NCBI GenBank assembly: GCA_029194665.1
Contig: JARFXO010000002.1
Coordinates: 124,001 to 188,000 of the forward strand
DNA length: 64,000 bases
Source of the DNA: Nitrospira sp.
GTDB taxonomy: Bacteria; Nitrospirota; Nitrospiria; Nitrospirales; Nitrospiraceae
Direction of reading: 5' to 3'
A program made the translations under genes and the position numbers. Under the pieces are notes generated by a model that saw only the letters and a list, made by a program, of their open reading frames with translations, was not told where the DNA came from and made no database searches. This document shows, one piece after another, positions 3,801 through 51,100 of this stretch; the first letter of the stretch is position 1; every line of letters begins with the position of its first letter.

Positions 3801-3902
3801 GAGCATTTTGCGACCGTCACGGTCACCGTGAAAACACTACAACTCCTCACCACCGGTGGAATCCCGGCACCGAGTGAGCCTCTTGAGGAGTTAAGCGTGT
3901 AG
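870..3902 (+). CDS. dnaE2: DNA polymerase III alpha subunit, error-prone DnaE2/ImuC-like
   Basis: C-family polymerase of 1010 residues, shorter than replicative DnaE (about 1160) and in the range of DnaE2/ImuC. It starts at GTG directly after the upstream stop. The N-terminal PHP domain begins FVHLHTHSCYSP. The polymerase palm carries PPDIDIDFPWDERP (the two catalytic aspartates of the PDxDxDF motif) and a third acidic residue in VKIDLLGNRS. The fingers contain GYSFCKPHSASYAQ. An OB-fold lies near residues 900-960 (VTLIGWLLTEKI). The likely role is translesion synthesis together with the coupled Y-family protein, usually under SOS control; the promoter lies to the left and is not visible. The context (Y-family partner upstream) favours DnaE2 over the replicative enzyme. 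The symbol is assigned by family resemblance. Confidence 0.85.
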   Translation: MAFVHLHTHSCYSPMWGIPTVEALCQAAQSQGQDYLALTDTNGLYGAIRFLEVAREHGLKPILGAELVCGRHRAVLLAKTSNGYANLCRILSARHCDASFDFIETVAQHRAGLMILSDDPIALPVWQAESEEDLYVELTPGPALSDSVALSHRLRLPPVATTRAAFLHPTDYQAHRLLRAIAENTTLSRLKANHCALPSHWLMPEPVLARHLPHIPEAITNQRQIAESCYTEWDFKQTIFPSFRQLSSDAAFETLHHKAYEGAIWRYGALSPVVRQRIEKELAVIREKGYADYFLVVDEIVRQAPRTCGRGSAAASIVSYCLGITHVDPIKHHLFFERFLNPGRHDPPDIDIDFPWDERPKILDWVFTHYGHQHTAMVANQNTLASRAALREIAKVYGLPAGEIGKALNFLQRRADFVEVQPGMTVQDWARDVCQALNLRNPWPEILYWSTKLDGHFRNLGLHPGGVVLVPDEIRRYVPVEISASNLPVIQWEKDQTEEAGLVKIDLLGNRSLAVIRDAIAAAARNTGRVIDYATWDPLSDPATNELIRRGDTMGCFYVESPATRLLLKKLWVGMPPARRAMADVFEYLVVVSSIIRPAANVFADEFVRRAHGQRYQSLHPLLDEVLAETHGIMVYQEDVMKVAVTLGGFSVEDGDQLRKVLSKKHKARQLRDYQRQFYQGATARGVEGRVIDAIWVMIMSFAGYSFCKPHSASYAQVSFKSAYLRAHYPAEFIAAVVSNQGGYYSAFAYLSEGRRMGLTILPPDINASTWAYTGSGKTVRVGFMQIKDLQEDLAKQIIGEREADGSYRSLSDFLSRVKLDYPQAKLLIKAGCFDSIAGELTRPALLWRVFAAQATKPPSSIPIPTEYSAQKNLQHELALFGFPLQCHPLDLFTEALAATPHMFAKDLDQYVGKEVTLIGWLLTEKIVSTKKGEPMEFMTLEDQNAMYDATVFPTTYQRYCHLLATNQAYVVTGSVEEHFATVTVTVKTLQLLTTGGIPAPSEPLEELSV

Positions 3903-22410: not shown

Positions 22411-23391
22411 TTAGGACCGGTCTCGCTCCGGCGAACGAGTCTTTAGAACGCCCCGCGACCGCTCACTCAAGTAGCGGACAAGGTCTGCGGCCAGTTGCCG
22501 ATCCTCCCCACGGTCTGACCGGGCTAACGTCCGCATCACCTGCTCATAATTCCGCATGACGTCCTGGGTTCGTCCAGGTCGGCGCGTGGTGCGTTTCAGT
22601 CGCTCCAACGTCTCCCCTTTCCTACTCACCTCATGCAGGTGCCGCACCGTCCAACGTTCATGCGTCGTGCGGTGAATCCGGCTCGTAGTGGTGGCCTCGA
22701 TGCCATGCTCGCGTAAGGCTTCCGCAAACCCCTCCCGCCAACGTTGCAGATCGGCCTTTCTCGGATTCAAGCGGACCCCATCGAGGCCTGCTGCTTTCAC
22801 TGTAAGATGCACATGTGGATGCGGAGAGGGGTGCGGATCTGGATCGGTCTCAAACGTGTGCAGCACCATCGCGTACTGAAACCCTGAGAACTCCCGCATC
22901 GCAAAGTCACGGGCCGCGCGTTGAACAGACAACGGATCGGTGCGTGTCGGCATGGAGAGGACGAGATGAAAGGCATCGCGCATGGTCGAATTTGCCGCGA
23001 TCGGCATCCCTCCATCCCGCCATTCGTCTTTCAGATCGGCCACTGCCTCCTTCCCGAGAATCACCTGACCGTCTTGATCTTCGATCTCGAGAAGCCCATC
23101 GCGCGAAATGTAGGTGAGGTTGTTCGAGATGCCCTTCATCCCTTTCGGCGCCCTGACGAGTTTCACCACGACTTGGGGTGAACGCCGAACCATCGCTTGT
23201 AATTTCCGCCGCACATAGGTCGCCCGAGCCTGTGACGTGCTAAGCCGTCCGCCGGTACTCACGCGCTTGGCGGAACTCAGACGAACACTCCTGCTGGACC
23301 TCGGTCGTGGGAGGGTCTCCGTTGAGACATTGAAGAGCCGACTCCCCCACTCATCGAGCTTCTCGTCAATCTGGTTGGTTGGCGGGGTCAT
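22411..23391 (-). CDS. VirD2-like (MOBP) relaxase
   Basis: 326-residue mobilisation relaxase. It shows GISNNLTYISRDG (motif I, with the Y..R stretch) and HPSPHPHVHLTVKA (motif III, the metal-binding histidines), both in the N-terminal half, followed by a basic tail. The protein would nick at oriT and attach to the 5' end through a tyrosine. I take the ATG at 23391, which overlaps the MobC stop in an ATGA; the open frame further upstream only shadows mobC. No type IV secretion genes are present, so this is a mobilisable element that would need a helper. Confidence 0.87.
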   Translation of the reverse strand: MTPPTNQIDEKLDEWGSRLFNVSTETLPRPRSSRSVRLSSAKRVSTGGRLSTSQARATYVRRKLQAMVRRSPQVVVKLVRAPKGMKGISNNLTYISRDGLLEIEDQDGQVILGKEAVADLKDEWRDGGMPIAANSTMRDAFHLVLSMPTRTDPLSVQRAARDFAMREFSGFQYAMVLHTFETDPDPHPSPHPHVHLTVKAAGLDGVRLNPRKADLQRWREGFAEALREHGIEATTTSRIHRTTHERWTVRHLHEVSRKGETLERLKRTTRRPGRTQDVMRNYEQVMRTLARSDRGEDRQLAADLVRYLSERSRGVLKTRSPERDRS

Positions 23392-23939
23392 TGGAGGTGC
23401 CAGCGCTCCACGGTCCCGCGTAAGACATCGGACACTTTCTTCGTATGGGCCTGGATGACGCGAGATAGTTCGGTGATGACTTCGACCCGAAAGGCGGTCC
23501 GATTCTGAGGCGCGGTATTCAAGACTTTTGCAATCTGGTTCAGGTTCCTGCCCAAAGCCAGCAGTTGTTGGTTCGAGCGGGCCAATGTCTCCAATTCCGG
23601 CTGTCCGACCTGCGGTTGCCCGGTCAACTTGGTGCGCACCATTGCCACCACCCATTTCGTCGGCACGTAACCTTCGTGACCGGCCATCTTCTTCAGGGCG
23701 GCGAGCTCTGAGGTCGTCAGGTTCAGTTCGATGCGAGCGGTCGCTCGTTCTCGCTTTGGGATGGCGCGACTCCGAGTCATCGGGGCCCGCGTCGCTCGCC
23801 GGTCCATGGCCTGCCGAAGGGCGTTCCGGAATGCATGGCTCGGAGTGATACCTTGCTGCTCACACCAGGCCTGCCATGGCGCTTTGAGTTCACCCAAATC
23901 CACCGTGACCGTGGTCGTCCGTTTCGCCCGCTGCCCCAT
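23388..23939 (-). CDS. mobC: MobC-like relaxosome accessory protein
   Basis: 183 residues. N-terminal part RTTTVTVDLGELKAPWQAWC, then a ribbon-helix-helix-like region RATARIELNLTTSELAALKK, and the MobC helix LLALGRNLNQIAKVLNTAPQ. MobC proteins bind near nic and help the relaxase open the strands. Start at MGQRAKRT (23939); a Met 12 codons upstream is the alternative. The gene is translationally coupled to the relaxase and lies 115 bp from the candidate oriT, the expected order. Confidence 0.83.
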   Translation of the reverse strand: MGQRAKRTTTVTVDLGELKAPWQAWCEQQGITPSHAFRNALRQAMDRRATRAPMTRSRAIPKRERATARIELNLTTSELAALKKMAGHEGYVPTKWVVAMVRTKLTGQPQVGQPELETLARSNQQLLALGRNLNQIAKVLNTAPQNRTAFRVEVITELSRVIQAHTKKVSDVLRGTVERWHLQ

Positions 23940-24053
23940 CAGCTCACCTGCACCAGCCCAAATTGAGACACCCAACTCCCCTCACCGACCTGTGGCTGAT
24001 TCCGGTCATGAGGGATCAAAGCACAATACGCACAAGAATACGATAAACCCAGA

Positions 24054-24123
24054 ATGTAAGACAACTACGGGCAACAGCCATATCCTGAAAACCTCTTACA
24101 ACCTCTTAAAATCGGTCTTACAT
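24054..24123. other. oriT: candidate oriT with VirD2/RK2-type nic core
   Basis: TATCCTG at 24081-24087 matches the MOBP nic consensus YATCCTG/Y in its first seven bases; the base after the nick would be A instead of a pyrimidine. It sits between inverted repeat arms ATGTAAGAC (24054-24062) and GTCTTACAT (24115-24123), 115 bp upstream of mobC and the VirD2-like relaxase. Position, core and flanking repeat together make this the likely transfer origin. Confidence 0.65.
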
Positions 24124-25261: not shown

Positions 25262-25687
25262 CTACGGAGATAAGATCTCTCGAACCGCAGTGGGGGCAAA
25301 GAAGCCCTGATCTCGGAGCGTGGCAAGCCAGGCCCAGGCAAACTCCTTCAAGTCCTGCTTCAGCGCGGGCACGACGTGCGTACGCCTGCCCGCCTCGTCA
25401 TACCGATAGACGTCTTGAACGATCCCCAGGTAGTCGTTCCTATACCACACCGGTTCGGCTACCGCGCCGTCGGGTAAGTTGTGATACAGGAACACCATGT
25501 CGGGATCGCGCATCAGATCGCCGTTCTGTTCCCCGTAATGGCACAGCGACACCAGCCGGTGTCCGTCTTCACTGGATCCAATCTCCTCGACAGACAGCGG
25601 CAAATAGCCAGGGACCGTGATACGCACCGCACGTGCGCCGTTGAGCAAGCAATTCAAATCCGTGGCAAAGGCTCGATACAGTTTCAT
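25262..25687 (-). CDS. DUF6908-like element protein
   Basis: About 141 residues, MKLYRAFATDLNCLLNG, with SLCHYGEQNGDLMRDPDMVF in the middle, the stretch typical of DUF6908-type proteins carried by plasmids and integrative elements. No enzymatic motif and no membrane segment. It is followed upstream (same strand) by another small element gene, so both are probably accessory genes of the mobilisable unit. The second of two adjacent Met codons is used. The family name is from memory of the motif. Confidence 0.65.
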   Translation of the reverse strand: MKLYRAFATDLNCLLNGARAVRITVPGYLPLSVEEIGSSEDGHRLVSLCHYGEQNGDLMRDPDMVFLYHNLPDGAVAEPVWYRNDYLGIVQDVYRYDEAGRRTHVVPALKQDLKEFAWAWLATLRDQGFFAPTAVREILSP

Positions 25688-25753
25688 CATCGTGTTCCTT
25701 TCTTGGCGTGCAGGAAGCCCCCGACCGGAGGGCCGGAGGCTTCCACACTGCGG

Positions 25754-27185: not shown

Positions 27186-27269
27186 CGAAGGGGGATCTCG
27201 CCCTCATCCGCGCAACAGCCATCCGGTGCCGAATCAAGCTGTGACTTGATGACACTCGTATCGGCCTCC

Positions 27270-27530
27270 GATCAGTTCCGTTCTGCTCCTCGACCAGCAC
27301 TGTAGAACCGTCGCGTGCACGTTCATCCATGAGGTCACTCGTGCGACCGAGCTGCACAGCAGTGAGGTCTGGTCGATCCTGAAGTACCGCCCATATCCAC
27401 TCGTCATGAATGCGTGAGGACCATTTGGCTCGAAACAGATCCGTGAGAGCCAGTTCGAGGAGCAAATCACGGAGCGAGCAGGATACAGGACGCAGGCATC
27501 GTAGAGCTTGGTGAAGGTGGCCACATTCAA
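27270..27530 (-). pseudogene. PIN-domain toxin gene, frameshifted and truncated
   Basis: A TTG or GTG start gives NVATFTKLYDACVLYPA, the PIN N-terminus with the first catalytic Asp. A shift of frame follows and the other frame continues LRDLLLELALTDLFRAKWSS, RIHDEWIWAVLQDRPDLTAV and LGRTSDLMDERARDG. After this the sequence leaves the family (EEQNGTDRR...), so the C-terminal acidic residues are lost. The break coincides with a short stretch that recurs at 29.62 kb. The TTG overlaps the antitoxin stop at 27527-27529, as expected for a coupled pair. Confidence 0.75.
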
Positions 27531-28023: not shown

Positions 28024-28359
28024 TCAACTGCCTTCCGGTAGTGGCGTTTTGCGATCGGCTCCTCGTGCCAGGCCGAGACGCTTATTTCGCTTTCGATACG
28101 AGGCAAGAGCCTTCCTGAGCCGGGCGTTTGGAGGAGGTGGCTTTTCGAGCAACTTTAGCAGCGTGAGGCTGTCCCGCTCCGACAACGTGATGCGTTCAGC
28201 TTTTTCGATCACACTCTCAGCTTCGCGCAAGGCCGATCGCAGCACAAAATCCGTCAGCTCCGTGTATCTCAACGCCGCCGCCCGCAGGAGCATGGCCTTC
28301 TGCTCCGTCCGCACCCGGAGATTGATCCGCTTATTACACTCTACAGCAACTCGAAGCAT
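28024..28359 (-). CDS. DUF1778 (TacA-like) antitoxin
   Basis: 111 residues from the ATG at 28359 (a GTG at 28386 is possible). The ribbon-helix-helix start NKRINLRVRTEQKAMLLRAA is followed by ELTDFVLRSALREAESVIEK and ITLSERDSLTLLKLLEKPPP, the DUF1778 pattern. Such antitoxins normally pair with a GNAT acetyltransferase toxin; none follows here. Instead the gene lies 23 bp downstream of an unknown 358-residue gene, which may be its partner. Confidence 0.8.
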   Translation of the reverse strand: MLRVAVECNKRINLRVRTEQKAMLLRAAALRYTELTDFVLRSALREAESVIEKAERITLSERDSLTLLKLLEKPPPPNARLRKALASYRKRNKRLGLARGADRKTPLPEGS

Positions 28360-28382
28360 GACTTCTCTTCTGTTGTGGCGGA

Positions 28383-29459
28383 TCACAACAACTCGTTGAG
28401 TGCGCCGTCGGCGATGATGATCTTGTTCTTCTTGCGGAATGGGGCGACCTTGGGATCAAAGTTGGTACAGATATCCAGGCAGACGGATTCTAAGTAGACA
28501 TCGAGCGCCTGGCATTCACGGTTGATGACCACATCGAGTTCTGCACGATCGGCAACGAGAGGACGGCAGTCGCGCATGAAATGCCGGAATCGCACGGCTT
28601 GTAAGGCGGTCTTGTCGCTAAAGATGAACGTCATGTGTGGGTCGTTGTGACGGCTGAGATCCTCCATGTAGACAGCCTTCCGAGCCTCACCGTTAAATTC
28701 AGTGCAGAGGGCATCGTAGCGTTGTGACAGGTAGTCCCAGAACCTCCGTAGCAATTCCTCGGCCTGCACTTCCTTTCCATCCGCATCGATCCGCTGGCTA
28801 AAGATCGTCCCCTTGCCCTCACGCTTGCCGTGATCCTTGGCATTCACGTAGCGGTGTGGAATGAGCGTGGACACCTTCTCCTGTCCGAACTCCTTGATGC
28901 GGCTGTAGACGTAGCCAGCCGCCATGCAGAGCGAGGCGTAGTGAAAGACACCATCGATAAACACGCGGGCCCAGGCATAGTAGAGTGCGCCACGGTACGG
29001 TTTGACGACGTACTCCGGGGTCTGCTCCTTGCGCGCCTGTTCTTGAAAACAGTGGTCGTCGTAGTCGTACGCGTAGAGCGTGTCGAAATCGAGCAGGGTC
29101 TTGTCCTTGTCCAGATATTCATTCAGGAAGAAGTAATCCTCGCCCACCCCAGTGGCGGGCAACAGTACTCGATTGAACACCAGATGCTCTTGATCGCCGA
29201 ACTGGTCGCTGATCCGTGAAAGGTCTTCATCTGTTTTTGCGTGGAGACCAAACAGCGCCTTGACCAACTCCTGACGGAGACGGAACGCGTCCTGTTCCGG
29301 CATGCTGACACGGTAGCGTTCCTGCGCCTCAATGGACCAGGCGAAGTATTCCGGGTTCACTCGCATGAGGGCTTGGCGGAGCGCGGGGTCGAGCGCACCA
29401 AACCCAGTGGTCGGTGGATGAATATCATGACTTGTTCTGGCTGGCCGTTGGTTCTCCAT
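28383..29459 (-). CDS. unknown protein (358 aa), partner of a DUF1778 antitoxin?
   Basis: Start MENQRPARTSHDIHPPTTGF at 29459. I do not recognise the family. It is a soluble mixed alpha/beta protein with blocks LLDFDTLYAYDYDDHCFQEQ, LYYAWARVFIDGVFHYASLC and RHNDPHMTFIFSDKTALQAV, and an acidic region VADRAELDVVINRECQALDV. The several Asp and His pairs could build a metal or nucleotide site, but no named motif fits. It is the first gene of a two-gene run ending in a DUF1778 antitoxin. A 12-bp palindrome CACACATGTGTG at 29475-29486 lies just upstream of the start and may be the operator. Confidence 0.6.
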   Translation of the reverse strand: MENQRPARTSHDIHPPTTGFGALDPALRQALMRVNPEYFAWSIEAQERYRVSMPEQDAFRLRQELVKALFGLHAKTDEDLSRISDQFGDQEHLVFNRVLLPATGVGEDYFFLNEYLDKDKTLLDFDTLYAYDYDDHCFQEQARKEQTPEYVVKPYRGALYYAWARVFIDGVFHYASLCMAAGYVYSRIKEFGQEKVSTLIPHRYVNAKDHGKREGKGTIFSQRIDADGKEVQAEELLRRFWDYLSQRYDALCTEFNGEARKAVYMEDLSRHNDPHMTFIFSDKTALQAVRFRHFMRDCRPLVADRAELDVVINRECQALDVYLESVCLDICTNFDPKVAPFRKKNKIIIADGALNELL

Positions 29460-29474
29460 ACGGGTTTGATATAC

Positions 29475-29486
29475 CACACATGTGTG
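29475..29486. promoter_or_regulatory. 12-bp palindrome, candidate operator of the unknown/DUF1778 pair
   Basis: CACACATGTGTG lies 16 bp before the ATG at 29459 on the minus strand, with TATATC between it and the gene. Ribbon-helix-helix antitoxins such as DUF1778 bind short palindromes in their own promoter. Assignment by position only. Confidence 0.4.
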
Positions 29487-29709
29487 TCAGGCATTCAAGT
29501 GCGGGAGTCTACGAGAAGATGATGAGCGAGATCATGGCCCTCGTGAAGAATGCAGGCTACGTCAAGAACGCCGTTCTCACGGCAGCGAGAGAGCAGGAAA
29601 GGGCACGGTGATACGCGTCTGTACTCCCGATCAGTTCTGTTCTGCTCCTCGATCTTCAGTGAAAAGCCAACGCGAGCCTGAACGGACTCAGACATCGGAC
29701 TCGCGTGGC

Positions 29710-29957
29710 GACCTCTTTCTAACACATTGTTGCGCCCCTCACCTACCCCGGGGCGCAACTGAATCTCCCTGTTTGTGGCCACGTGCGGCTGCAGGCGTGA
29801 CATCGTTCGCGATGGCGCGGTTGCCACGGGCGTGCCACACCCCTTAATGGGCGACGGCTGATCTCTTGGCACCGTCGAGTCGCATTGTGCGACACGACGG
29901 TGCCGGCCCCCCTGGCACGGCGTCTCTGGACGCGGTGCCTCAGAGACCTGACTGGCA
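29710..29957. repeat. hairpin-rich direct repeat, copy 1 (left of AbiE)
   Basis: About 248 bp repeated at 31847-32095. Three stem-loops: GTTGCGCCCC (29729-29738) with GGGGCGCAAC (29750-29759); a long stem at 29868-29904, GGCACCGTCG paired with CGACGGTGCC plus five inner pairs; and 29914-29939, GGCAC.GCGTC paired with GACGC.GTGCC. Stems are kept between copies while loops vary (TCTG against TCCG in the third). No protein is encoded. Confidence 0.8.
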
Positions 29958-30023
29958 AAGTCTCCGCCCAGAGAGGCCTTCTGGGCAATTCCTCCAGACC
30001 CGAACTGGCCGGGAGTGGTCTAT

Positions 30024-30077
30024 GTATGGATAAAACCGTTTGCATTTAATTGTAAGTGCATGCATATTTATCCATAC
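30024..30077. promoter_or_regulatory. inverted repeat operator of the AbiE operon
   Basis: GTATGGATAAA at 30024-30034 and TTTATCCATAC at 30067-30077 are perfect 11-bp arms, 32 bp apart, ending 2 bp before the AbiEi ATG. AbiEi proteins repress their operon by binding inverted repeats in the promoter; the position fits. TTTAAT between the arms may be the -10 box, which would make the transcript nearly leaderless. Confidence 0.65.
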
Positions 30078-30079
30078 CT

Positions 30080-30688
30080 ATGAAGCACGTTGAGCTGAAT
30101 CGCCGAGCTGAAGCTGTGTTCCGCCGCCATCGAGGCGTGCTACGGACTTCTCATGCCCTGAAGCTTGGGATCCATCCACGCATTCTCTACCGCCTTCGTG
30201 ACGCCGGACGACTTGTTGCAGTGACACGGGGAGTCTATCGGCTGGCCGACCTCCCTGAGCCGAGCCATCCGGATCTTCTTGTCGTGGCACGCCGAGTCCC
30301 GCAGGCCGTGATGTGTCTCATCTCGGCACTCTCCTTCCATGGCCTCACCACCCAAATCCCGCACGAGGTCCAGATTGCGTTGCCTCGTCGGACCCGGTAT
30401 CCACGGCTCGACCATCCTCCGCTTCGCGTCTTTCTGATGACGGGTGCTGCGTACACTGAAGGGGTCGAAACGCATTCTATCGAGGGAATTCCGCTTCGCG
30501 TCTATGACCCAGCAAAGACGGTGGTGGACTGCTTCAAGTTTCGGAACAAAATCGGCATTGATGTGGCCGTTGAGGCACTGCGACTGGCCCGTGAGCGGAA
30601 ACGCGTGACGCCCCGTGCGCTGCTTCAGTATGCGCGCCTCTGCCGAGTGGAACGTGTGATGCGTCCGTATCTGGAGGCACTCACATAA
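30080..30688 (+). CDS. abiEi: AbiEi-family antitoxin (type IV toxin-antitoxin)
   Basis: 202 residues from MKHVELNRRA; a start at 30056 is possible but would run through the operator arm. N-terminal winged helix FRRHRGVLRTSHALKLGIHP followed by YRLRDAGRLVAVTRGVYRLA, the AbiEi DNA-binding domain, then the C-terminal antitoxin domain with CLISALSFHGLTTQIPHEVQ and YDPAKTVVDCFKFRNKIGID. It represses its own operon and counteracts the toxin without stable binding in studied systems. Its stop overlaps the toxin start by one base (TAATG). Confidence 0.9.
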   Translation: MKHVELNRRAEAVFRRHRGVLRTSHALKLGIHPRILYRLRDAGRLVAVTRGVYRLADLPEPSHPDLLVVARRVPQAVMCLISALSFHGLTTQIPHEVQIALPRRTRYPRLDHPPLRVFLMTGAAYTEGVETHSIEGIPLRVYDPAKTVVDCFKFRNKIGIDVAVEALRLARERKRVTPRALLQYARLCRVERVMRPYLEALT

Positions 30689-31602
30689 TGGCCGGTCATC
30701 CATCCAATCTGCCGGCATCGATTCATCAGCGGCTGCTCAACCACGCGAAACAGCAAGGCCGGCCTCTTCAAGAGCTGCTCCAGTATTTTGCCATTGAACG
30801 ATTCCTGTTCCGTCTCAGTCAATCGCCGCATGCCACCCGATTTTATCTCAAGGGGGCGCTCATGCTTCGGCTCTGGGATGCACCCCTGTCGCGTCCAACG
30901 ATCGATGTGGATCTGATGGGGCGACAGATCTTGTCCCAGGATGAGCTGGAGCAGGTCATCAAGGACATCTGTGTGCACGCGGTGCCGGATGACGGCTGCC
31001 GCTTCGAGGCAGCCACCGTGCGAGCCCAGCCCATTCGGCTTGAAGATCAGTATGGGGGCATCCGTGTCGCATTCATGTCCCATATTGGGAAGATGCGGCT
31101 CAACATGCAGGTGGATGTCGGATTTGGTGACGTCATCGTTCCAGGACCGATTCCGATTGATTTCCCGGTACTCCTGGATTTTCAGGCCCCTCATCTTCTG
31201 GCGTACTCCCCTGAGAGTGCGATCGCGGAAAAATTTCAGGCGATGGTGCTGCTGGATTCAGCGAATAGCCGAATGAAGGATTTTTATGACATTTGGCTGC
31301 TTGCCAGCGGTCATCCATTTGAGGGCTCTGTTGTGAGCCACGCACTCCAGGCCACGTTTACGCGGCGACAGACCCCTTTCCCATTGGACATTCCCACTGC
31401 ACTGACGGACCTTTTTGTGAAGGATCGCCTCAAACAGACACAGTGGAATGCCTTTGTCCGGAAAGGCCATTTTGCTGCTGAGCAGATGTCACTCAGTGCA
31501 GTTGTGGAGTTACTGCGAGACTTCCTGATGCCTCCCATGCGAGCCGTGGCCAACAGCGAGCGCTTTGACCGCCATTGGCCAGCCGGCGGGCCTTGGACGT
31601 GA
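30688..31602 (+). CDS. abiEii: AbiEii-family nucleotidyltransferase toxin
   Basis: 304 residues of the AbiEii/MenT family, a polymerase-beta-like nucleotidyltransferase that blocks growth by modifying an RNA target (tRNA in MenT relatives). Motif I region FYLKGALMLRLWDAPLSRPT followed by IDVDLMG carries the D-x-D metal ligands; a further acidic site lies in MQVDVGFGD; the K and D in SAIAEKFQAMVLL and RMKDFYDIWLL complete the family pattern. All look intact, so the system is probably functional. With AbiEi it gives phage abortive infection in Lactococcus. Confidence 0.92.
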   Translation: MAGHPSNLPASIHQRLLNHAKQQGRPLQELLQYFAIERFLFRLSQSPHATRFYLKGALMLRLWDAPLSRPTIDVDLMGRQILSQDELEQVIKDICVHAVPDDGCRFEAATVRAQPIRLEDQYGGIRVAFMSHIGKMRLNMQVDVGFGDVIVPGPIPIDFPVLLDFQAPHLLAYSPESAIAEKFQAMVLLDSANSRMKDFYDIWLLASGHPFEGSVVSHALQATFTRRQTPFPLDIPTALTDLFVKDRLKQTQWNAFVRKGHFAAEQMSLSAVVELLRDFLMPPMRAVANSERFDRHWPAGGPWT

Positions 31603-31846
31603 CATCCTGACTCAGAGTTCGGCCCCCAATTCAGAGCAGATCATTGAGACGGGGCCTGTTTAGAGAACGGACAGTGATACGTTGTGCACGTCAATTGGAA
31701 TGCCGTTGCCCGAGTTCGCGTCATAATCACAGACTTCCAAAAGATGTCGTCCTGGTCGAATTCCAAGTCATGAAGATTGTCCTCCACGTTCCCCACTGAA
31801 AAGCCAAGCCGATCATGAATGGCCTCACACAACGGATTTGCGAACT

Positions 31847-32095
31847 GACCTCTTCGTTAACACATTGTTGCGCCCCTCACCTACACCGGGGCGCAACAGA
31901 ATCTCCCTGTCTGTGGCAAAGCACGGCTGCAAGCGTGACACCGCCTCGGTGGCGCGGTTGCTTAGGGCGTGCCACACCCCTTAATGGGCGACGGCCGTTC
32001 TCTTGGCACGGTCGAGTCGCCTTTCGCGACACGACGGTGCCAAACTCCGCCTGGCACGGCGTCTCCGGACGCGGTGCCTCAGATGCGTGACTGCC
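31847..32095. repeat. hairpin-rich direct repeat, copy 2 (right of AbiE)
   Basis: Second copy of 29710-29957, same orientation, about 85-90% alike by eye. Hairpins at 31867-31897 (arms identical to copy 1), 32005-32041 (one arm base changed, making G opposite G) and 32053-32078. 31603-31846 before it also shares fragments with the sequence left of copy 1 (CACTGAAAAGCCAA against CAGTGAAAAGCCAA). From 32096 to 32440 no gene is seen. Confidence 0.8.
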
Positions 32096-32440
32096 GAAGT
32101 TACTCACCCAGCGGAGGTCAGTGCCCTCTCTGCAGACACCCGTTCGACACTTTGCTTTTGGATCCTTCGGGATGATTTTCTGGAATTGTTCTTTGCGGTG
32201 AGTATGAGCTGACAGCGGGTGTCTAAAGAGCCGTGTCGTCTTTACAGCAATGCGTTAGATCCCTCCACTGACAGATGTGTATGCCGGATGCTGCTCCGTA
32301 GCGTGCCTTTGGCGAGTGCGGTGTGATGAGAACGGGTGAGTTGATGACTCAAGAAGGCAGAGCATGGGAGGTCTGCTCAAAAGACCTGCCTCTCAGACGG
32401 TTGGGGATATGGGGCATATCTCACGCCTACTGCGGGTCTC

Positions 32441-32680
32441 TTACACCGCCACGTCGTATTGTTTAGCGTACGCATCGATGAGACCCCGTAACATGCGTTG
32501 ATAGGGGACACGTGCACGCTTGGCTTGCTTCTTGAAAAACGCCAGACTGCTCTGCGTCAACTCCAGCGTGACTTTTGTGGTCGGCTCACGTTTGACTAAG
32601 GCCGACGGTGGCGGCAGAAAATCCGTGACACGTTCCCCCATGGCCAACCGCTCATCGGTGTATCTGATTTTCTTGCTCAT
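32441..32680 (-). CDS. brnA: BrnA-family antitoxin (second pair)
   Basis: 79 residues from MSKKIRYTDERLAMG; a longer start at 32716 lies inside the toxin gene. The ribbon-helix-helix is TTKVTLELTQSSLAFFKKQA followed by KRARVPYQRMLRGLIDAYA. This short type with VPYQRMLR is common for BrnA/CopG-like partners of BrnT. The start overlaps the end of brnT by 29 bp, a coupled pair. Confidence 0.85.
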   Translation of the reverse strand: MSKKIRYTDERLAMGERVTDFLPPPSALVKREPTTKVTLELTQSSLAFFKKQAKRARVPYQRMLRGLIDAYAKQYDVAV

Positions 32681-32942
32681 AGCGTTTCCTCCCTTGCCTC
32701 CAGTAGCCTGCTCCATAAATGCGGATCCGCTTTTTCCTATACGAAAATCGTACCGTTAGCACATTGCCCTCGACCACTCCAAGACAGAAGAACCGCTTCT
32801 CCCCTTTTTCATGATCGAGATCTCGGATAACGATGCGTCTGGGATCATCAAAGGCGTTTTGCGCGTCTTCAAACGACACACCATGCTTCTTTTGGTTGAG
32901 GAGATCTTTTCCGTCATCCCATTCAAAGGTGGGCTTTGGCAT
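32652..32942 (-). CDS. brnT: BrnT-family toxin (second pair)
   Basis: 96 residues: FEWDDGKDLLNQKKHGVSFE, DAQNAFDDPRRIVIRDLDHE, KGEKRFFCLGVVEGNVLTVR and YRKKRIRIYGAGYWRQGRKR, the full BrnT pattern with its catalytic Arg and His residues in place. BrnT is a RelE-fold ribonuclease that lowers translation. Intact, unlike the copy at 26.6 kb. A palindromic operator lies 18 bp upstream. Confidence 0.9.
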   Translation of the reverse strand: MPKPTFEWDDGKDLLNQKKHGVSFEDAQNAFDDPRRIVIRDLDHEKGEKRFFCLGVVEGNVLTVRFSYRKKRIRIYGAGYWRQGRKRYEQENQIHR

Positions 32943-33903: not shown

Positions 33904-33948
33904 CTGAAAAGGCTGGTGTCGACAGTTCGATTCTGTCCCTCGGCACCA
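33904..33948 (+). tRNA. 3' half of tRNA-Phe(GAA), attachment-site duplicate (not a functional tRNA)
   Basis: CTGAAAA (anticodon loop with GAA), GGCTG (3' anticodon stem), GTGTC (variable loop), GACAG-TTCGATT-CTGTC (T arm), CCTCGGC, A, CCA. The bases before CTGAAAA do not pair with GGCTG, and no D arm or acceptor 5' strand exists, so this is only the 3' half. It is the classical scar of integration into a tRNA gene. With the tRNA on the + strand, the intact gene should lie at the left end of the element. Confidence 0.8.
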
Positions 33949-42175: not shown

Positions 42176-45100
42176 CTATTGCCAGCTGGCAGCAAGCACG
42201 GCCTGCACATCTTGCGGCTGCTGATCGATGGCCTGATCCCAGGGAAGACCGGTCTGCTGCGTAAAACCCGCCATCGCTTGGATGAGCTGGTCCACTTGTG
42301 TACTGAGCAGAATCTCTCCGTTGCCTGCTTGAATCGTTTCCGTACGATTCGCTGTACTCGTATACCAGTTCTGGATCGTGACCATATCCGTCGAACCATG
42401 GATGGCCAATCGCAGGTCATTGGCCTGGCGGCTAATCACGAGATCAAGCGGATCGATCCCGGTGTCATAGCGCAGCTTGTCAGTCGTGCCACTCTTGTCT
42501 TGTAAGAGATCTTGTCCGTCTCCCCGGCTCAAGAGATAGGTATCGTTGCCGCTGCCACCGTTGAGCCTGTCGTCGCCCTCATTGCCTCGAAGCGTATCGT
42601 TACCACCGGCTCCAGTCAAAACATTGTTGGAGCTGTTGCCCATGAGCGTATTATTCAGTCCATTTCCCGTCCCGTTGATGACATCAGCCCCGGTCAACGT
42701 CAGGTTTTCCACGTTGGCACCGAGGGTATGAGTCGCACTGGTCTGAACTGTGTCCGTTCCCTCACCCGCAGCTTCTACCACGGTGTCTCTCGAACCAATG
42801 ATGTAGGTATCGTCGCCGGCTCCTCCTGTCAGGGTATTGCGTCCTAGGCTAAGCAGACCATTCAGCACATTGGCCCGCTCGTTGCCGGTTCCATTGATCG
42901 CGCTGAAGCCCACCAGGGTCAGATTCTCCACGTCGGCAGCAAGGTTGTGGGTGAGGGCGCTGACTACCGTGTCCGTGCCGCTGTTTACCTCTTCAATGAC
43001 GGTATCATCGACACCAATCACATAGGTGTCATTGCCTGCCAGTCCCGCCAGCACGTTGGCGCCACTATTGCCCGTGAGCTTGTTGTCAAGATCGTTTCCG
43101 ATCCCGTTGATCGCCGCCGAGCCGGTCAAAACCAGGTGTTCTACATTCACCCCAAGACCATAGGTCACGGAGCTGGCGACTATGTCGAAGCCTTCGTTGG
43201 TCGCTTCGGTCACAACATCACCGACCTGATCCACTATATACAAGTCATTCCCCGCACCACCGACCATAGTATCGGCTCCGGCCTTGCCGTCTAGCAGATT
43301 GGCCTCGTTGTTTCCAGACAACTGATTACTTAGGGCATTCCCAATGCCTGTGCTTGGTCCTGTCCCTGTCAGCGTCAAATTCTCAAGATTCGCACCCAGG
43401 GTGTATCTGAGGAGCGAGGTCTGCACCGTATCGGTTCCCTCGTCGGCCAGTTCGGTCACGACATCACCCGCGACGTCCACAATGTAGGTATCGTTGCCGG
43501 TCCCTCCGCGCATCGTGTCTGTGCCGGATCCGCCGTCGAGAAGATCGTGGCCCTGTCCACCGGCTAGGCTATCGTCGCCGGCTAGAGCCGTGATCCGATC
43601 AACCACATTCGTGCCGGTGATAGAGTCATTGCCGCCCGTCCCTGTCAGATCAAACCCACGTTGGACAAGCTGGTCATAGGACAGGACGGTGCCATCAGCA
43701 AACCTGAAGGTTTCGATCGTGCGAGGCCCCAACACATTGTTCGGGTCAAAATACGAGAGATGAAGAGCATCGCCGCTGGTCCCGATATGCAGCAGCAGCG
43801 AACCTACATCTAGGCTGAGATCAGCGGGATCGATGCCCGCACCAAATTCGAGCGTATTCGTACCGCTAGGTAGGCTCGAATCGTTAATCGTATCGACTCC
43901 GTCACCAATATTATAGACATAGGTGTCGTCGCCGGAACCGCCCAGAAGCGTATCGTTCCCGATTCCTCCGGCAATGGTGTCGTTGCCTGCACCGGCATCC
44001 ACGATATCGTCTCCACCGAGGGCGTCGATGACATCATCCCCTGCGGCGGTCGTGATTGTGTCGTCCCCTTCGGTGATGGTCGGTCTGAAGAAACTGTTGA
44101 TACCTGTCGTGCTGCCATCGGCAAAGGCCAAGGTCTCCACCACCAGCGAACCGTTCGCCCCTGTGAGATCGAAATTGTTCAGTACCAGTCGATCTGTCCC
44201 GCTCGTGCCGACTTGAATGATGAGCGTTCGAGCGACTTCATCATGCCTTACGATAAGGTCATTCCGGCTGATCCCTACGCCGAATTGGATAAGGTTTCCC
44301 TCGCCGACAGCCGCGACATCCTCGATCATATCGATGCCATCACCGAGGTTGAAGAGATAGGTGTCGTGACCGGTCCCACCGCGGAGCACGTCGTTGTCGA
44401 GCCCGCCGACGAGAGTATCGCGACCAGTAAGGCCGGATAGGACATTGCCATCCTCCGAGCCGATCAAGACGTTGTCCAGCTCGTTGCCTGTTCCATTGAG
44501 CGGTGGCGGAGAGATGAGGTTATCCTGATCGTCGAAGCTGGCCGGTGGTGAGACGAGTTCCAAATTTTCAAGATGCTCCCCCAATATATAGGAAACCGTG
44601 CTCTTCACCGTGTCGGTTCCTTCATTCTCCAGCTCCGCCGCCGTTTGCTCTTGGCTATGGACGATGTAGGTATCGTTGCCGAGCCCTCCGATTAAAAGAT
44701 CGTCGGTTTCACGTGGGACTGCGTCTCGTCTATCCAGCCCCCCGCCTAGAAATGGTATCCCCCCAACAAACGAGAGGTTTCCAGCATCCTCCATCAGAAT
44801 GTCATCACCCTCTCCACCGATCAAAATATCGCTGCCGGTTCCTTCGATGTAGGGTGGCCCTTCCAGCTCACGAAAGATCCCTCCAACCAACACATCGTTC
44901 CCGGCACCGCCGTCCAGAATGTTGTCACGTGTATTGCCCACGATGAGATTATCAAGTTCATTTCCGACCCCGTTGTCGGCGGTGAAGTCGGCAAGGACAA
45001 GATTCTCGACGTTGTCGGGCAAGGTGTAGTCCTGCGCACTCTGAACAGTATCAATCCCACCGCCCGGCGCCTCGATAACCTCATAATTCCCCGGGATGCT

Positions 45101-48100
45101 CGAGCTTCCCAACAGGTAGGTATCATCTCCATCCAACCCGACTAGGGAGGCTGGGAAAGATGTTTCAAGCACATCGTCGGATGAAGTAGCTGTAGAGATA
45201 CCGACGTTCGAAGATGACCAAGCCAAATTCCACTCAGTACCATCGGCGAATCGCACGATTGCTTGTGTGGTTTCCGGCCCCACCGCGAACCAATCCGTTG
45301 AGAGCTGTACTGTCAGTCTATCTCCACTGTCAGGAATAAGAATGTCCGCCACGGAAGGAGCGCGCCACGTCATTACAACATCGGCAGGAATAATCTCCGC
45401 GGCCATCTCGATGAGATCGATGTCGTTCCTGTTATTGTCGAGCGTCACGTGATCATCGCCGGATCCTCGACCGAAGAGAACCCGATCGACACCTGTCCCG
45501 AGAATCAGCGTATCGTCCCCTGCCCCTCCATCGAAAACGTTATTTCCTCTGAAATCGATGAGGCTGTCGTCACCGACCCCTCCTATCAGCCGGTCGTCGC
45601 CAACAACCTGTTGTCCAGACTGCGGTTGGAACGTAAGATCTCCGTAGAGGGAGTCCTTGCCACGCCCTCCCATTAGCACATCGTTCCCGGACGATCCGAT
45701 CAACAGATCATGGCCGTCGCTTCCCAGAATGGTTTCGCTTTCGGATGAGCCTGTGACCACGTTGCCAATCAACGCTCGCGCGCTCAGCTCAGCACTGTTC
45801 CACAGCGTGTCATCGGCAAATCGCACCTGCTTCTGATCGTATTCGGGCGAACCAAAGAACGACAGAACCGTCAACTCGTCCGTGGTCCCGCTGATGACCA
45901 GTTCGAGGTTGAATCCATTGCGATAGACCTCGACATCTTCAGCAGCCACCGTCGAATTGAACTGAATCGTATCGATTTCACCGGCTAGTTCTGAATCGAA
46001 CACCGTATCGCGACCAGAGCCCAGGCCGAAGAGATACGTATCGGCCCCACCGAATCCAAGCAGCGCATCATCCCCAGCCCCTCCGTCGAGCACGTTTGAT
46101 GCCTCGTTGCCTCTTAATTCATTATTCAGCTCGTTGCCGGTTCCGTTAACAGGAGTGATGCCGATTAACGTGAGATTCTCGACATTCGCGCTGAGACTGT
46201 AACTTACAATGCTCTGCACCGTGTCTACACCTTCACTTGCTTCCTCGATGGCCATGTCGCCGACATGGTCCACGACATAGGTGTCATTGCCGTCGCCACC
46301 AATCAACCTATCCGCACCGAGTCCGCCATCCAGCACGTTGTTTGTTCGACCGCCGATCAACGTATTCGCTAAATTGTTCCCATATCCCGTCACGGACTGT
46401 TCGAATGAACCGTATGGGATGAGTGAAAAGCTCGCGAAATCCGGCACGCGAGGATCGAGAAGGGTGAGATTTTCGATGTTCACCGGCAGACGATAGTCGT
46501 GGCCGGCGATCACTGTATCGATGCCGCCTGTGACGGTTTCAATAAGAATATCGTCATCGCCGTTCGGTCCGATGACATAGGTGTCGTTGCCGTCACCGCC
46601 CGCCAGCACACTGATTGACCCATCGGCCTTCAGCACGTTGGCCAGTTCATTTCCTACTCCGATCAATGAAGCACTACCGGTCAGCGTCAGGTTCTCAACA
46701 TTGGTCCCAAGCGTTGAGCTTGCACCAGTCTGCACCCCGTCGATACCTTCTCCGGCTGACTCAACCACCGTATCGTCCGCGCCGATCACATAGGAATCGT
46801 TCCCCGATCCCCCTGTCAGGACGTTGGCGCCACTATTGCCGATCAGCACATTGTCAAGTGCATTGCCGGTGCCATGAATAGCCGCGCTCCCCGTCAATGT
46901 AAGATTCTCGACATCGGTTTCCAGGGTGCGAGTCACACTACTCCGCACCGTATCAATTCCTTCATTCGCCGACTCTGTGACCACATCCCCCTGATCATCC
47001 ACAATGTACGTATCGTCACCCGAGTTGCCGGCAAGCTGATCGACTCCAGGCCCTCCATCGAGTAAATCGCTACCAGCCAACCCGGTCAGTTGATCGTCCC
47101 CGGCTAGGCCGACCAAACGATCGTGACCATTGGTGCCGACGAGAAAATCTGGTCCCGCTGTTCCGCTAATGACCGGCCGCGTGAGATTCTCAATAAGGGC
47201 CTGGTCCCAAACCGTTCCATCGGAAAACTGCACCAGCTCGGTCTGGAGCGGAGGAGCGAGGAAGTAGAGGGACACCGTCAGCCGGTCGGCACCCCCGTTG
47301 AGACTCAGGACAAGGTCATTATTGTTCCGGGAAACGACAACATCTGAGGGAGCCACTCCTGGTGCCATGCGAATCACATCCGAGCTGCCCTGAAATTCTA
47401 CAATCGTGTCTTGCCCGGCCCCTGGACCAAAGAGATACGTGTCGTTGCCCCGCCCGCCGAACAACCGATCAGCCCCCAACCCGCCATCGAGTCTGTCGTC
47501 TCCCAGTCCGCTCCTAAGCACATCGGCACCGTCACCGGTAACAATCCGATCCATCACGTTCGTTCCGGTGATTTGGTCATCGCCGTCAGTTCCGGTCAGA
47601 TCGAACCCACCGGCAAGCAGCTGCTCATACCTCAGCGTGCTGGCGTCGGCGAATCGAAACGACTCCACAGTGCGAGGGCCGAACACATGGTTGCGATCAA
47701 AACTATCGAGCTGTATCGCATCGCCATTTGTCCCCATGCGAATCAGCAAATCGCTCTGATCGGGATCTGATTGATCGAGAGTGAGATCGAGGCGGAGATC
47801 GGCGTATGTGATTCCGGCACCGAACACGATCTCATTCCCCGCGTCGGCCGACGCCATATCCATAATCGTATCGATCCCGTCGCCGACATTGAAGAAGTAG
47901 GAATCATGTCCTTCAGCACCCTCCAGTCGATCATTGCCCAACCCACCGCGGAAGCGATCGGCCAGATCGGTGCCTGATAAAAAGTCGTCGAACTCGGTAC
48001 CATCGATATTGAACCCTTGTGCCACCAGATCAGCAAAGGAGAGCACCGTACCATCTGCGAATTGGAACTGCTCGATCGTCTGCGATCCAAACACATCGAA

Positions 48101-51100
48101 GGCAGAGCCTGACTGAATCCCGTCTGAACCGGTTCCCACGTTGATCACGATCTGACCGAACTGCGGAGAGAGCGAGACCGAATCGGACGTGATACCGCTA
48201 CCGAACAGGACCGTATCGGTATCAGCGCCAGCACCGGAATCAAACAGAGAATCGAGCCCGTCTCCTATGTTGAAGCGATAGGTATCGCTCCCGTCCCCGC
48301 CGAGCAATTGATCGTCCCCGGCTCCACCAACCAGTACATCATCGCCTGCCTCTCCTTCGAGCGAATCATTCCCAGCCTCCCCGTTCAGTACATCGTTGCC
48401 GTCGCCGCCTCGCAGGACATCGTCTCCGGTCGCGCCGAAAATCTGATCAAACCCACCGTTGCCGAGAAGCACATCGCGTCCATCGCCCCCGTCGATCACA
48501 TTGTCGATCGTCCCTCCCATCAGCACATCGTCGCCGGCAAGCCCCCGAATCGTGCGGTAGATCTCTTGGCCGTCCAGGGTGTCGAATCCGGCCGTACCCA
48601 CTAGTTCCAATCCATTCGCAAGTAGCTGGGAAGCTGTCAACATGGTCCCGTCCGCAAACACGAACTGGTCAACTCCAAGGGATGCCAACTGGTTAGCGGG
48701 GTCGAACCATTGAATCTCCACCGCATCACCCGTGCCTCCCGGGCGTAGGACCAGGTAATTAATGACAGTGCCGGGATCTCCCTCCTCCTCTCCGCCTCCA
48801 CCAGGAATCGTGACTTGTTTGAAGCTGAGACTGAGATTGGCTTGTGAAATCCCTGATCCAAAGACCAGCCGGTTACCTTCTCCTGGCCGGTCCTGGATGC
48901 TGTCGAACCCGCCGCCCTTAGCAAAGATATACGTATCCTGCCCTGCCTCACCAAACAGCGTGTCGTTGCCGGCAGCGCCCATCAATACGTCGTTTCCAGC
49001 CCCTGCGTTGACCACATCATTACCGGCCCCTCCAAAAATCCGTTCTCCCTGAGCGGTACCGGCGAGTTGGTCGTCTCCCAACCAACCCGAGATGGCCAAA
49101 CCTGTTGCGGCAAGTTGTGCGTACGTGAGGATAGTGCCATCGGAGAATTCGAATGACTCGATAGGATGCGGCCCATTCAGGTTACCGACTCCAAAGTTCT
49201 GGATCTGAACCGCCTCTTCTCCTATCCCTGTGCGCAATACGAGAGAGTCGTCAGGTCCCATCGCTGCGATCATTGCGGTCGAACTGATTCCTGCACCGAA
49301 CACCAGCCGGTTCCCCTCCCCAGCGGCTTCTTCGATAACATCAAACCCGTCGCCTAACTCATAGAGATAGGTATCTTGTCCACCGCCGCCGACAAGCGTA
49401 TCGTTTCCGGCACCACCGACGAGAATATCGTTGCCTCCGCTTCCCCCAATCTGTCCATCCACGTCGCCGACAAGAATATCGTCGCCCGCTCCTCCATCAA
49501 GCTCGTCATTACCGTCGTCGCCCCTCAACCCATCATTGCCATCGCCACCGAATATCTGATCGTTGTCCTCTTCACCGAAGATTCTATCGTCGCCGGCATC
49601 ACCAGCGAGGACATCATTGCCCAATCCGCCTTGGAGTTCGTCGTTCCCTTCTCCGCCGAAGATTGTGTCCGCATCTGCCCCGCCACCAAAGAGGTCATCG
49701 CCCGCACCTCCGTCCAGTTCATCCAATCCATCGCCGCCGAGCAGGAGATCGTTTCCCTCATCGCCAAATACGACATCGTTGCCGCTTTCCCCATCGAACT
49801 GATCGATCCCCTCTCCCGCAATAATCTCATCATCTCCTGTTCCGCCGAACCCTACATCATTCCCCTCACCACCGATCAAACTATCGTTCCCTACCCCACC
49901 ATACAGGGCATCTACGCCGGCATCGCCGAGCAAAGTATCATCACCACCACGGCCAAGCAGGACATCATCCCCGTCGCCCCCTTCCAACCAGTCGGCCCCT
50001 TCCTGGGACGAATCCACCCCATCATCGTCACCGGACAACTGATCATTGCCCGATCCACCGAGCAACACATCATCCCCGGCATTCCCATCCAATTGATCAT
50101 TCCCGGCACCGCCGGTCAGAAAGTCATTGCCGGGCGTTGTAGGATAAATCAAATTCAGACCTTGCTCCGTGTCCCCGACAAGAATATCGTTCCCCTCACC
50201 ACCATCGAGCACGTCGTCTCCACCATCGCCACTGAGCGCATCGTTGCCCTCGCCCCCTTCCAAGACATCGTTACCGGGGTAAAGCACTCCGGTAAGATAT
50301 TGGATCACATATTCATTAAAGTTTTGCTCGATGATACGGCCGGCCGTGTAAACGTCACCCCAGAGCACATCATCACCAACGCCTCCAATCAACCGATCGT
50401 CATTCCCACCTCCACCGAGCCGATCGTTCCCAGCTCCGCCATCCAGGTAGTCCTTACCATCTTGCGTACTCCGAGGATCAGGGACTTCATGCCACGGCTG
50501 GTCAACACGGTCATCAATGTTGTCTCCGAATAACGTGTCATTGCCCGCCCCTCCATCCAGCAGATCATGGCCCCGTCCACCGAAGAAGGAATCATTCCCT
50601 CCGTTACCGTAGAACTTGTCATCGCCGTACACAGTTCCTGGAGCATTCGCGTCCGGCCCTGCTCCCCCGATGAGGGTTTGATGATAAAAGCCTCCAGCGG
50701 TTCCCATCGCCACACCAACCGTCGGATCGGTGATCGACGACCAATCCTCGGTATACGTCCCATACCGGTCATCGGTGGTACCGACGAAGGGCTTCACGCT
50801 CACTACGCTTTCAATCTGTGTCGTATGCGTCGCGTCACCATTCACATCCACCAGCGTGGCGGAGAGTGTGACGGTGGCGTCGGCTGACACCTCGTCGCTC
50901 GCGACCAGAGTAAACAGCACTTGATCGGCGCCCTCCGGTACGGTCACTTGGAATGTCCCATCAGCACCGATGACCTGTGCACCGTCATCCGTCGCAACAG
51001 TAAGTTGGTCGGCCTGCGGACCTTGCAATCGCAGAGAGACGCGCTGTCCGCCCGCCCCAGCCGCAAAGGGTACCGAAAGCCGGAATAACTCTCCGAGGCG

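Follow-up and report, generated by a model that had tools for sequence, protein, structure and literature searches.

The AbiEi/AbiEii operon of a Nitrospira genomic island stands between two copies of a non-coding repeat that folds strongly and is apparently undescribed. Genome comparisons show that this repeat is a non-coding component conserved across a family of integrative mobilizable islands in Nitrospira, and that it has been a seam where crossovers joined cargo, on one side, to integrase or other modules, on the other. As judged from nic-like motifs, the repeat is shown to lie in the leading region of these elements, with its four hairpins folding on the strand that would be transferred. 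Our preferred explanation, held with about as much doubt as conviction, is that it is a leading-region element acting as folded single-stranded DNA (similar to ssi, sso or Frpo sites), a function that we infer from sequence, and that it would serve as a recombination seam because it is conserved.

Structure and distribution of the repeat

In the window, by which we mean the whole stretch of 64,000 nucleotides analysed, sequence comparison places both repeat copies on the + strand, 2137-2139 bp apart, around the AbiE operon, in agreement with a first-pass annotation that had described same-orientation repeats of ~250 bp spaced by 2.1 kb. The limits given there (29710-29957 and 31847-32095) captured real copies of a longer unit (~29640-29997 and ~31777-32100), and of the four hairpins P1-P4 into which the conserved core of ~232 bp folds, it had recognised three per copy but overlooked P2 (29774-29839).

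~29640..29997, + strand: repeat copy 1, extended unit (core 29713-29943)
29729..29759, + strand: P1 of copy 1 (GTTGCGCCCC/GGGGCGCAAC), 10-bp stem
29774..29839, + strand: P2 of copy 1 (TGTGGC..ACG / CGTGCCACA, inner CATCG/CGATG), long and irregular
29868..29904, + strand: P3 of copy 1
29914..29939, + strand: P4 of copy 1
~31777..32100, + strand: repeat copy 2, extended unit (core 31850-32082)
31867-31897, + strand: P1 of copy 2
31912-31976, + strand: P2 of copy 2
32005-32041, + strand: P3 of copy 2
32053-32078, + strand: P4 of copy 2

Copies 1 and 2 are 87-90% identical across three ungapped core blocks, with weaker homology on the left side (73% from 29640/31777) and some further weaker homology to the right of the core. 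The loop difference formerly assigned to a third hairpin is present in the P4 loop (TCTG in copy 1, TCCG in copy 2), and single mismatches, as read from the alignment, are kept at fixed places in P2, P3 and P4. The further shared scraps noticed earlier are real as well: the window contains a broken PIN-type toxin ORF (27234-27530, - strand), and past its break the sequence (27250-27318) resembles copy 1 at its left edge.

Selection on structure, as had been claimed, is borne out by an alignment of 41 copies in which standard pairs fill 97.5% of the cells and double-change cells number 23, compared with 5.3 +/- 1.9 in shuffles (0/500 as high). Sliding the partners by 1-3 columns lowers pairing to 21-48%. 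The number of pairs with a double change (five) is, taken alone, not above shuffles (75/500); the clearest covariation is seen in P2 (C-G/U-A and G-C/U-A) and in P3 (U-A/C-G and C-G/U-A). Pairwise identity reaches 85-86% in P1, P2 and P3, 66% in the left extension and 45-53% on the right side. A coding role for the repeat was rejected, as no reading frame is conserved and each is open in at most 14 of the 41 copies, with varying lengths. With DNA parameters, 41/41 copies have their more stable fold on the + strand rather than the - strand; with RNA parameters 25/41 do, a difference that gives modest support to single-stranded DNA over RNA, the copies being related.

The repeat stands far above chance: its own genome has it at five places, and 18 of the 59 relatives searched gave matches; a repeat match is carried by 27 of the 59 genomes of the genus, most genomes being draft assemblies whose contigs often end at repeats. 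The covariance-model search recommended in the first-pass annotation, run with a model built from the 41 copies, found the repeat in 22/147 genomes of the order and 22/296 of the phylum; matches outside the genus came from one genome in another genus of the same family and, weakly (E 2e-4), from elsewhere in the class. When the exact P4 pattern was scanned over one genome per species (~85,000 species), 40 stretches were obtained, all in Nitrospira-named records except two from one record, 'Nitrosospira isolate CMX', and a genome placed in the window's genus (G080) holds a copy matching one of these two. The repeat had no match in PLSDB plasmids, phage records or IMG/VR, Rfam scans (gathering score, E-value) returned no family (sbcD alone appeared, with E 0.07 and under its gathering score), and the papers searched on Nitrospira islands or repeats contained no description of the element. 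With both copies elsewhere and compensatory changes found, the element survives the objection raised at its first description, namely a lack of both.

Mobilizable islands and the transferred strand

The first-pass annotation was silent on the island, its relaxase and oriT, and the strand rule described below. An intact tRNA-Phe (G000:C2:121420-121496) and an att copy in the window bound the island, which is ~36.5 kb long and includes the following features:

22411..23463, - strand: MobA/VirD2-like relaxase (PF03432)
23388..23975, - strand: MobC-like relaxosome accessory protein, assigned from position and resemblance
24077..24087, + strand: nic-like motif GCCATATCCTG of a putative oriT, upstream of mobC; nick expected after G, T-strand = + strand
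25262..25690, - strand: DUF6908 protein, common to many of these islands
28024-28386: TacA-like antitoxin, partner of the 364-aa ORF
28383..29477, - strand: conserved 364-aa ORF left of copy 1, paired with the TacA-like antitoxin
30080..30688, + strand: AbiEi antitoxin (PF13338)
30688..31602, + strand: AbiEii nucleotidyltransferase toxin (PF08843)
32441..32942, - strand: BrnT toxin (PF04365) and adjoining BrnA-like antitoxin ORF, right of copy 2
33921..33948, + strand: att copy, the 3' end of tRNA-Phe (intact tRNA-Phe at the opposite island end)

With both domains in one operon, AbiE is a type IV toxin-antitoxin system, and the relaxase, putative oriT, integrase and att repeats at a tRNA identify the island as an integrative mobilizable element. 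The integrase is presumably the ORF adjoining tRNA-Phe, recognised by eye; the same left end of the island (L163 2432-3664 (-) and 4124-5870 (+), window 870-3902 (+)) holds, besides this ORF, what we take by eye to be a LexA/S24-like repressor, a DinB/ImuB-like polymerase and a DnaE-like polymerase. Repressor and polymerases may together form a cassette for SOS mutagenesis on a mobilizable island. A 3480-aa ORF (window 42176-52618, - strand), with a lipase/esterase-type start by eye, lies immediately to the right of the island.

Islands in other genomes follow a recurring order of relaxase, mobC, oriT, variable toxin-antitoxin genes, repeat, integrase and then tRNA or tmRNA, and the integrase next to the repeat varies among several tyrosine integrases or a serine recombinase. 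The smallest islands, of ~5 kb (L058, L063), hold hardly anything beyond relaxase, mobC, oriT, a MazEF-like pair, repeat and integrase, names being given by resemblance. Repeat and relaxase co-occur across the 59 genomes of the genus (22 with both, 2 with the relaxase only, 5 with the repeat only, 30 with neither; Fisher p = 2e-9); a 99% complete genome, G081, has the relaxase with the repeat undetected. Between the repeat and unrelated integrases, a conserved motif similar to CCCCTACTTTTTCGGTATGGTCATAAATTCTGAACC was seen in L038 (8820-8860), L048 (5325-5365), L049 (3885-3925), L051 (9605-9640) and L050 (4140-4180), which is possibly an integrase promoter or operator.

A motif conserved upstream of mobC, ATATCCTG, is similar to the nic site of MOB-P. 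Along the T-strand, the repeat is situated 0.9 to 7.3 kb downstream of the nic motif in 29/30 comparisons. Both lie on the same strand in 30/30, which do not amount to 30 independent events because all copies may share one ancestral arrangement. A fixed orientation relative to the transferred strand and non-coding stem-loops kept on one strand, both features of sso and ssi sites, are found in the repeat. The same-strand rule extends to a second family of elements that are RP4-like and have a different, TraI-like relaxase; these carry an RP4-like CACCTATCCTGCC.

In this second family, whose members have RP4-like TraI and TraM and relaxases other than those of the mobilizable islands, a divergent form of the repeat is located in the leading region and is accompanied by RadC, DUF4942 and antirestriction (ArdB) genes. 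It precedes leading genes that run leftward (a small ORF, RadC, DUF4942), and a copy consisting of P3-P4 only is found upstream of an antirestriction gene. An arrangement expected of Frpo-type promoters, in which leading genes with the T-strand as their template lie downstream, is seen in RP4-like elements, the picture in mobilizable islands being mixed. Some RP4-like elements possess, near the far end of DUF4942, an additional copy of the structure that is inverted and low-scoring (L158 5574-5769 (-), L159 10608-10810 (+), L072 9911-10121 (+)), and their leading genes are therefore bracketed on both sides. Such inverted copies, and the G081 genome, speak against the single-strand reading. One locus, L068, joins a 71%-identical mobilizable-island relaxase to a leading region of the RP4-like family.

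Module exchange at the repeat

The early proposal that defence genes are exchanged at a cassette boundary holds as an evolutionary outcome, in that flanking modules reassort at the repeat. Core distances of the left and right halves correlate at 0.09 vs 0.38 for random halves of informative columns (0/500 as low); the low linkage inside the core could come partly from repeated mutation. Among copy pairs with common flanks, 86/101 share one side only (47 the left, 39 the right) and 15 share both. The unit of AbiE plus copy 2 (30001-32099) aligns at 90% with L037 and is found in G012 between different neighbours, and the right repeat (copy 2) of L037 is a chimera, window-like left of the repeat and L066-like from P3 on, with the crossover mapping to P2-P3. 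A search for other toxin-antitoxin genes between copies, likewise proposed at the outset, located them between copies or copy fragments in L036, L038, L048, L049 and L051. The P2-P3 part is interrupted by insertion-sequence genes in L041 (7489-9736) and L050 (2950-3983) (IstB-like; IS481-like).

Candidate functions and known parallels

Integron attC sites are folded single strands, and a gene is exchanged with its downstream site as a unit. The repeat resembles them in its folded single strand and in the trading of a gene together with the downstream repeat, so that a dedicated attC-like site capturing cassettes of toxin-antitoxin gene plus repeat would fit the AbiE unit shared with L037 between differing neighbours, the toxin-antitoxin genes or insertion sequences that interrupt copies around P2-P3 in several islands, and the place of the L037 crossover. 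We nevertheless consider such a site improbable. An attC is defined by R/L core sites, a fixed crossover and a resident IntI, whereas the repeat has ~232 bp and four hairpins, junctions scattered over its length rather than at one base, and adjoining recombinases that differ among islands, tyrosine and serine types included; two of the interrupted copies contain insertion-sequence genes, and homologous recombination across ~230 bp of conserved sequence accounts for the mosaic without a dedicated enzyme. Hairpins at the ends of REP/RAYT and IS200/IS605 elements are conserved, bear mismatches and act as single-stranded DNA. A transposable element or its end (MITE, RAYT/REP unit or composite transposon) that carried AbiE would share with the repeat its several copies, its richness in palindromes and its conserved, mismatched hairpins, whose single-stranded action here is putative, and a RAYT-like N-terminal fragment does lie beside one interrupted copy (L048); context for these end hairpins is given in PMC6006769. 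It is hardly credible all the same that the repeat is the end structure of a hairpin-recognised mobile unit, as had been suggested, given that it keeps a fixed internal site in tRNA-integrated islands and is not scattered through the genome. PF01797 (Y1) genes are neither linked to the repeat nor correlated with it, as those of its own genome are far from all copies and others occur in G002, which has no copy, and in G001, which has divergent weak matches only. A RAYT-associated REP was rejected on the grounds that the copies are not dispersed and these genes are unlinked, and a composite transposon on the grounds that the AbiE unit has no transposase.

The main rival to a single-strand DNA function is a structured non-coding RNA encoded on the + strand, e.g. 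a regulator of island excision or transfer, which would explain why covarying stems include G-U pairs and why the repeat precedes xis/int on the same strand in many islands. There is also a weak + strand promoter-like match (TTGCCA-16-CTTAAT type) at the P2/P3 border, the best match in 22/41 copies. We still judge an RNA unlikely, as Rfam offers no match above threshold, no sigma-70 promoter-like site is present in 29450-32500, no terminator-like site is found at the 3' end of either copy, and no integrase follows the repeat in RP4-like elements within the stretch examined. Far less probable is an oriT or other double-stranded control site, such as a replication origin or partition site: while the repeat is non-coding, conserved, usually single in each island and associated with the relaxase, a distinct nic-like site is conserved upstream of mobC, the second family has its own RP4-like oriT, and a double-stranded site would need neither compensatory changes nor a fixed strand.

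If the repeat acts as a leading-region single-strand element, its hairpins would form when the T-strand enters the recipient as single-stranded DNA, serving as a single-strand initiation site that primes second-strand synthesis in the manner of sso/ssi. In RP4-like elements they possibly also start early, Frpo-like transcription of the leftward leading genes; such leftward transcription of single-stranded DNA would not express the toxin-antitoxin and integrase genes of small islands, because these genes have the sense of the T-strand. For copies 1 and 2 of the window, recombination between islands may have brought in AbiE with its downstream repeat, and the AbiE pair would guard the segment against deletion through recombination between the copies, as proposed for Frpo1-flmAB-Frpo2 of F.

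In F, Frpo1 and Frpo2 are 92% identical, ~5 kb apart and bracket the flmAB toxin-antitoxin genes, for which the authors suggest protection of the segment against deletion via Frpo1/Frpo2 recombination (PMC9849209); toxin-antitoxin genes are over-represented in leading regions (PMC11541004). Similar to the Frpo/ssi sites of F and ColIb-P9 (PMC9849209, PMC11541004), the repeat combines a leading-region position, structure on the T-strand and near-identical copies around a toxin-antitoxin locus with antirestriction and other establishment genes as neighbours. It differs from them in folding into several short GC-rich hairpins where they have a single promoter-like stem-loop, in having no DNA match in PLSDB plasmids and in the absence of clear -35/-10 boxes: the best matches to Frpo boxes are near shuffled level with no conserved -10, and because no -35/-10 pair is conserved, the repeat falls outside the strict definition of Frpo. 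The sso1 of ICEBs1 has three orientation-specific stem-loops (PMC4595007). Like sso1 and rolling-circle sso sites, the repeat is non-coding, with multiple one-strand stem-loops, and part of an integrated relaxase-dependent element (PMC4595007); unlike sso1, which is located just downstream of nicK, it lies on the other side of oriT, has no visible sequence relation, and its role is a predicted one. An sso or ssi site promotes second-strand synthesis in an orientation-specific manner, as would be predicted for the repeat.

Enterobacterial plasmids and one Bacillus ICE supply most of what is known about how mobile elements become established as single-stranded DNA. We tentatively propose, with slightly more doubt than confidence, that this structured element, which is specific to the lineage, has no entry in the RNA family library and shows no sequence relation to the searched plasmids that bear Frpo/ssi sites, is the single-strand initiation site of conjugative and mobilizable elements in Nitrospira, common to unrelated relaxase backbones, and also a joint for trading toxin-antitoxin, antirestriction and integrase modules. 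If this is true, a mostly uncultured nitrifier genus would have its own single-strand element, which would serve as a marker in the search for mobile islands of the genus and would show, in one worked case, how conserved non-coding DNA drives the exchange of modules around toxin-antitoxin genes.
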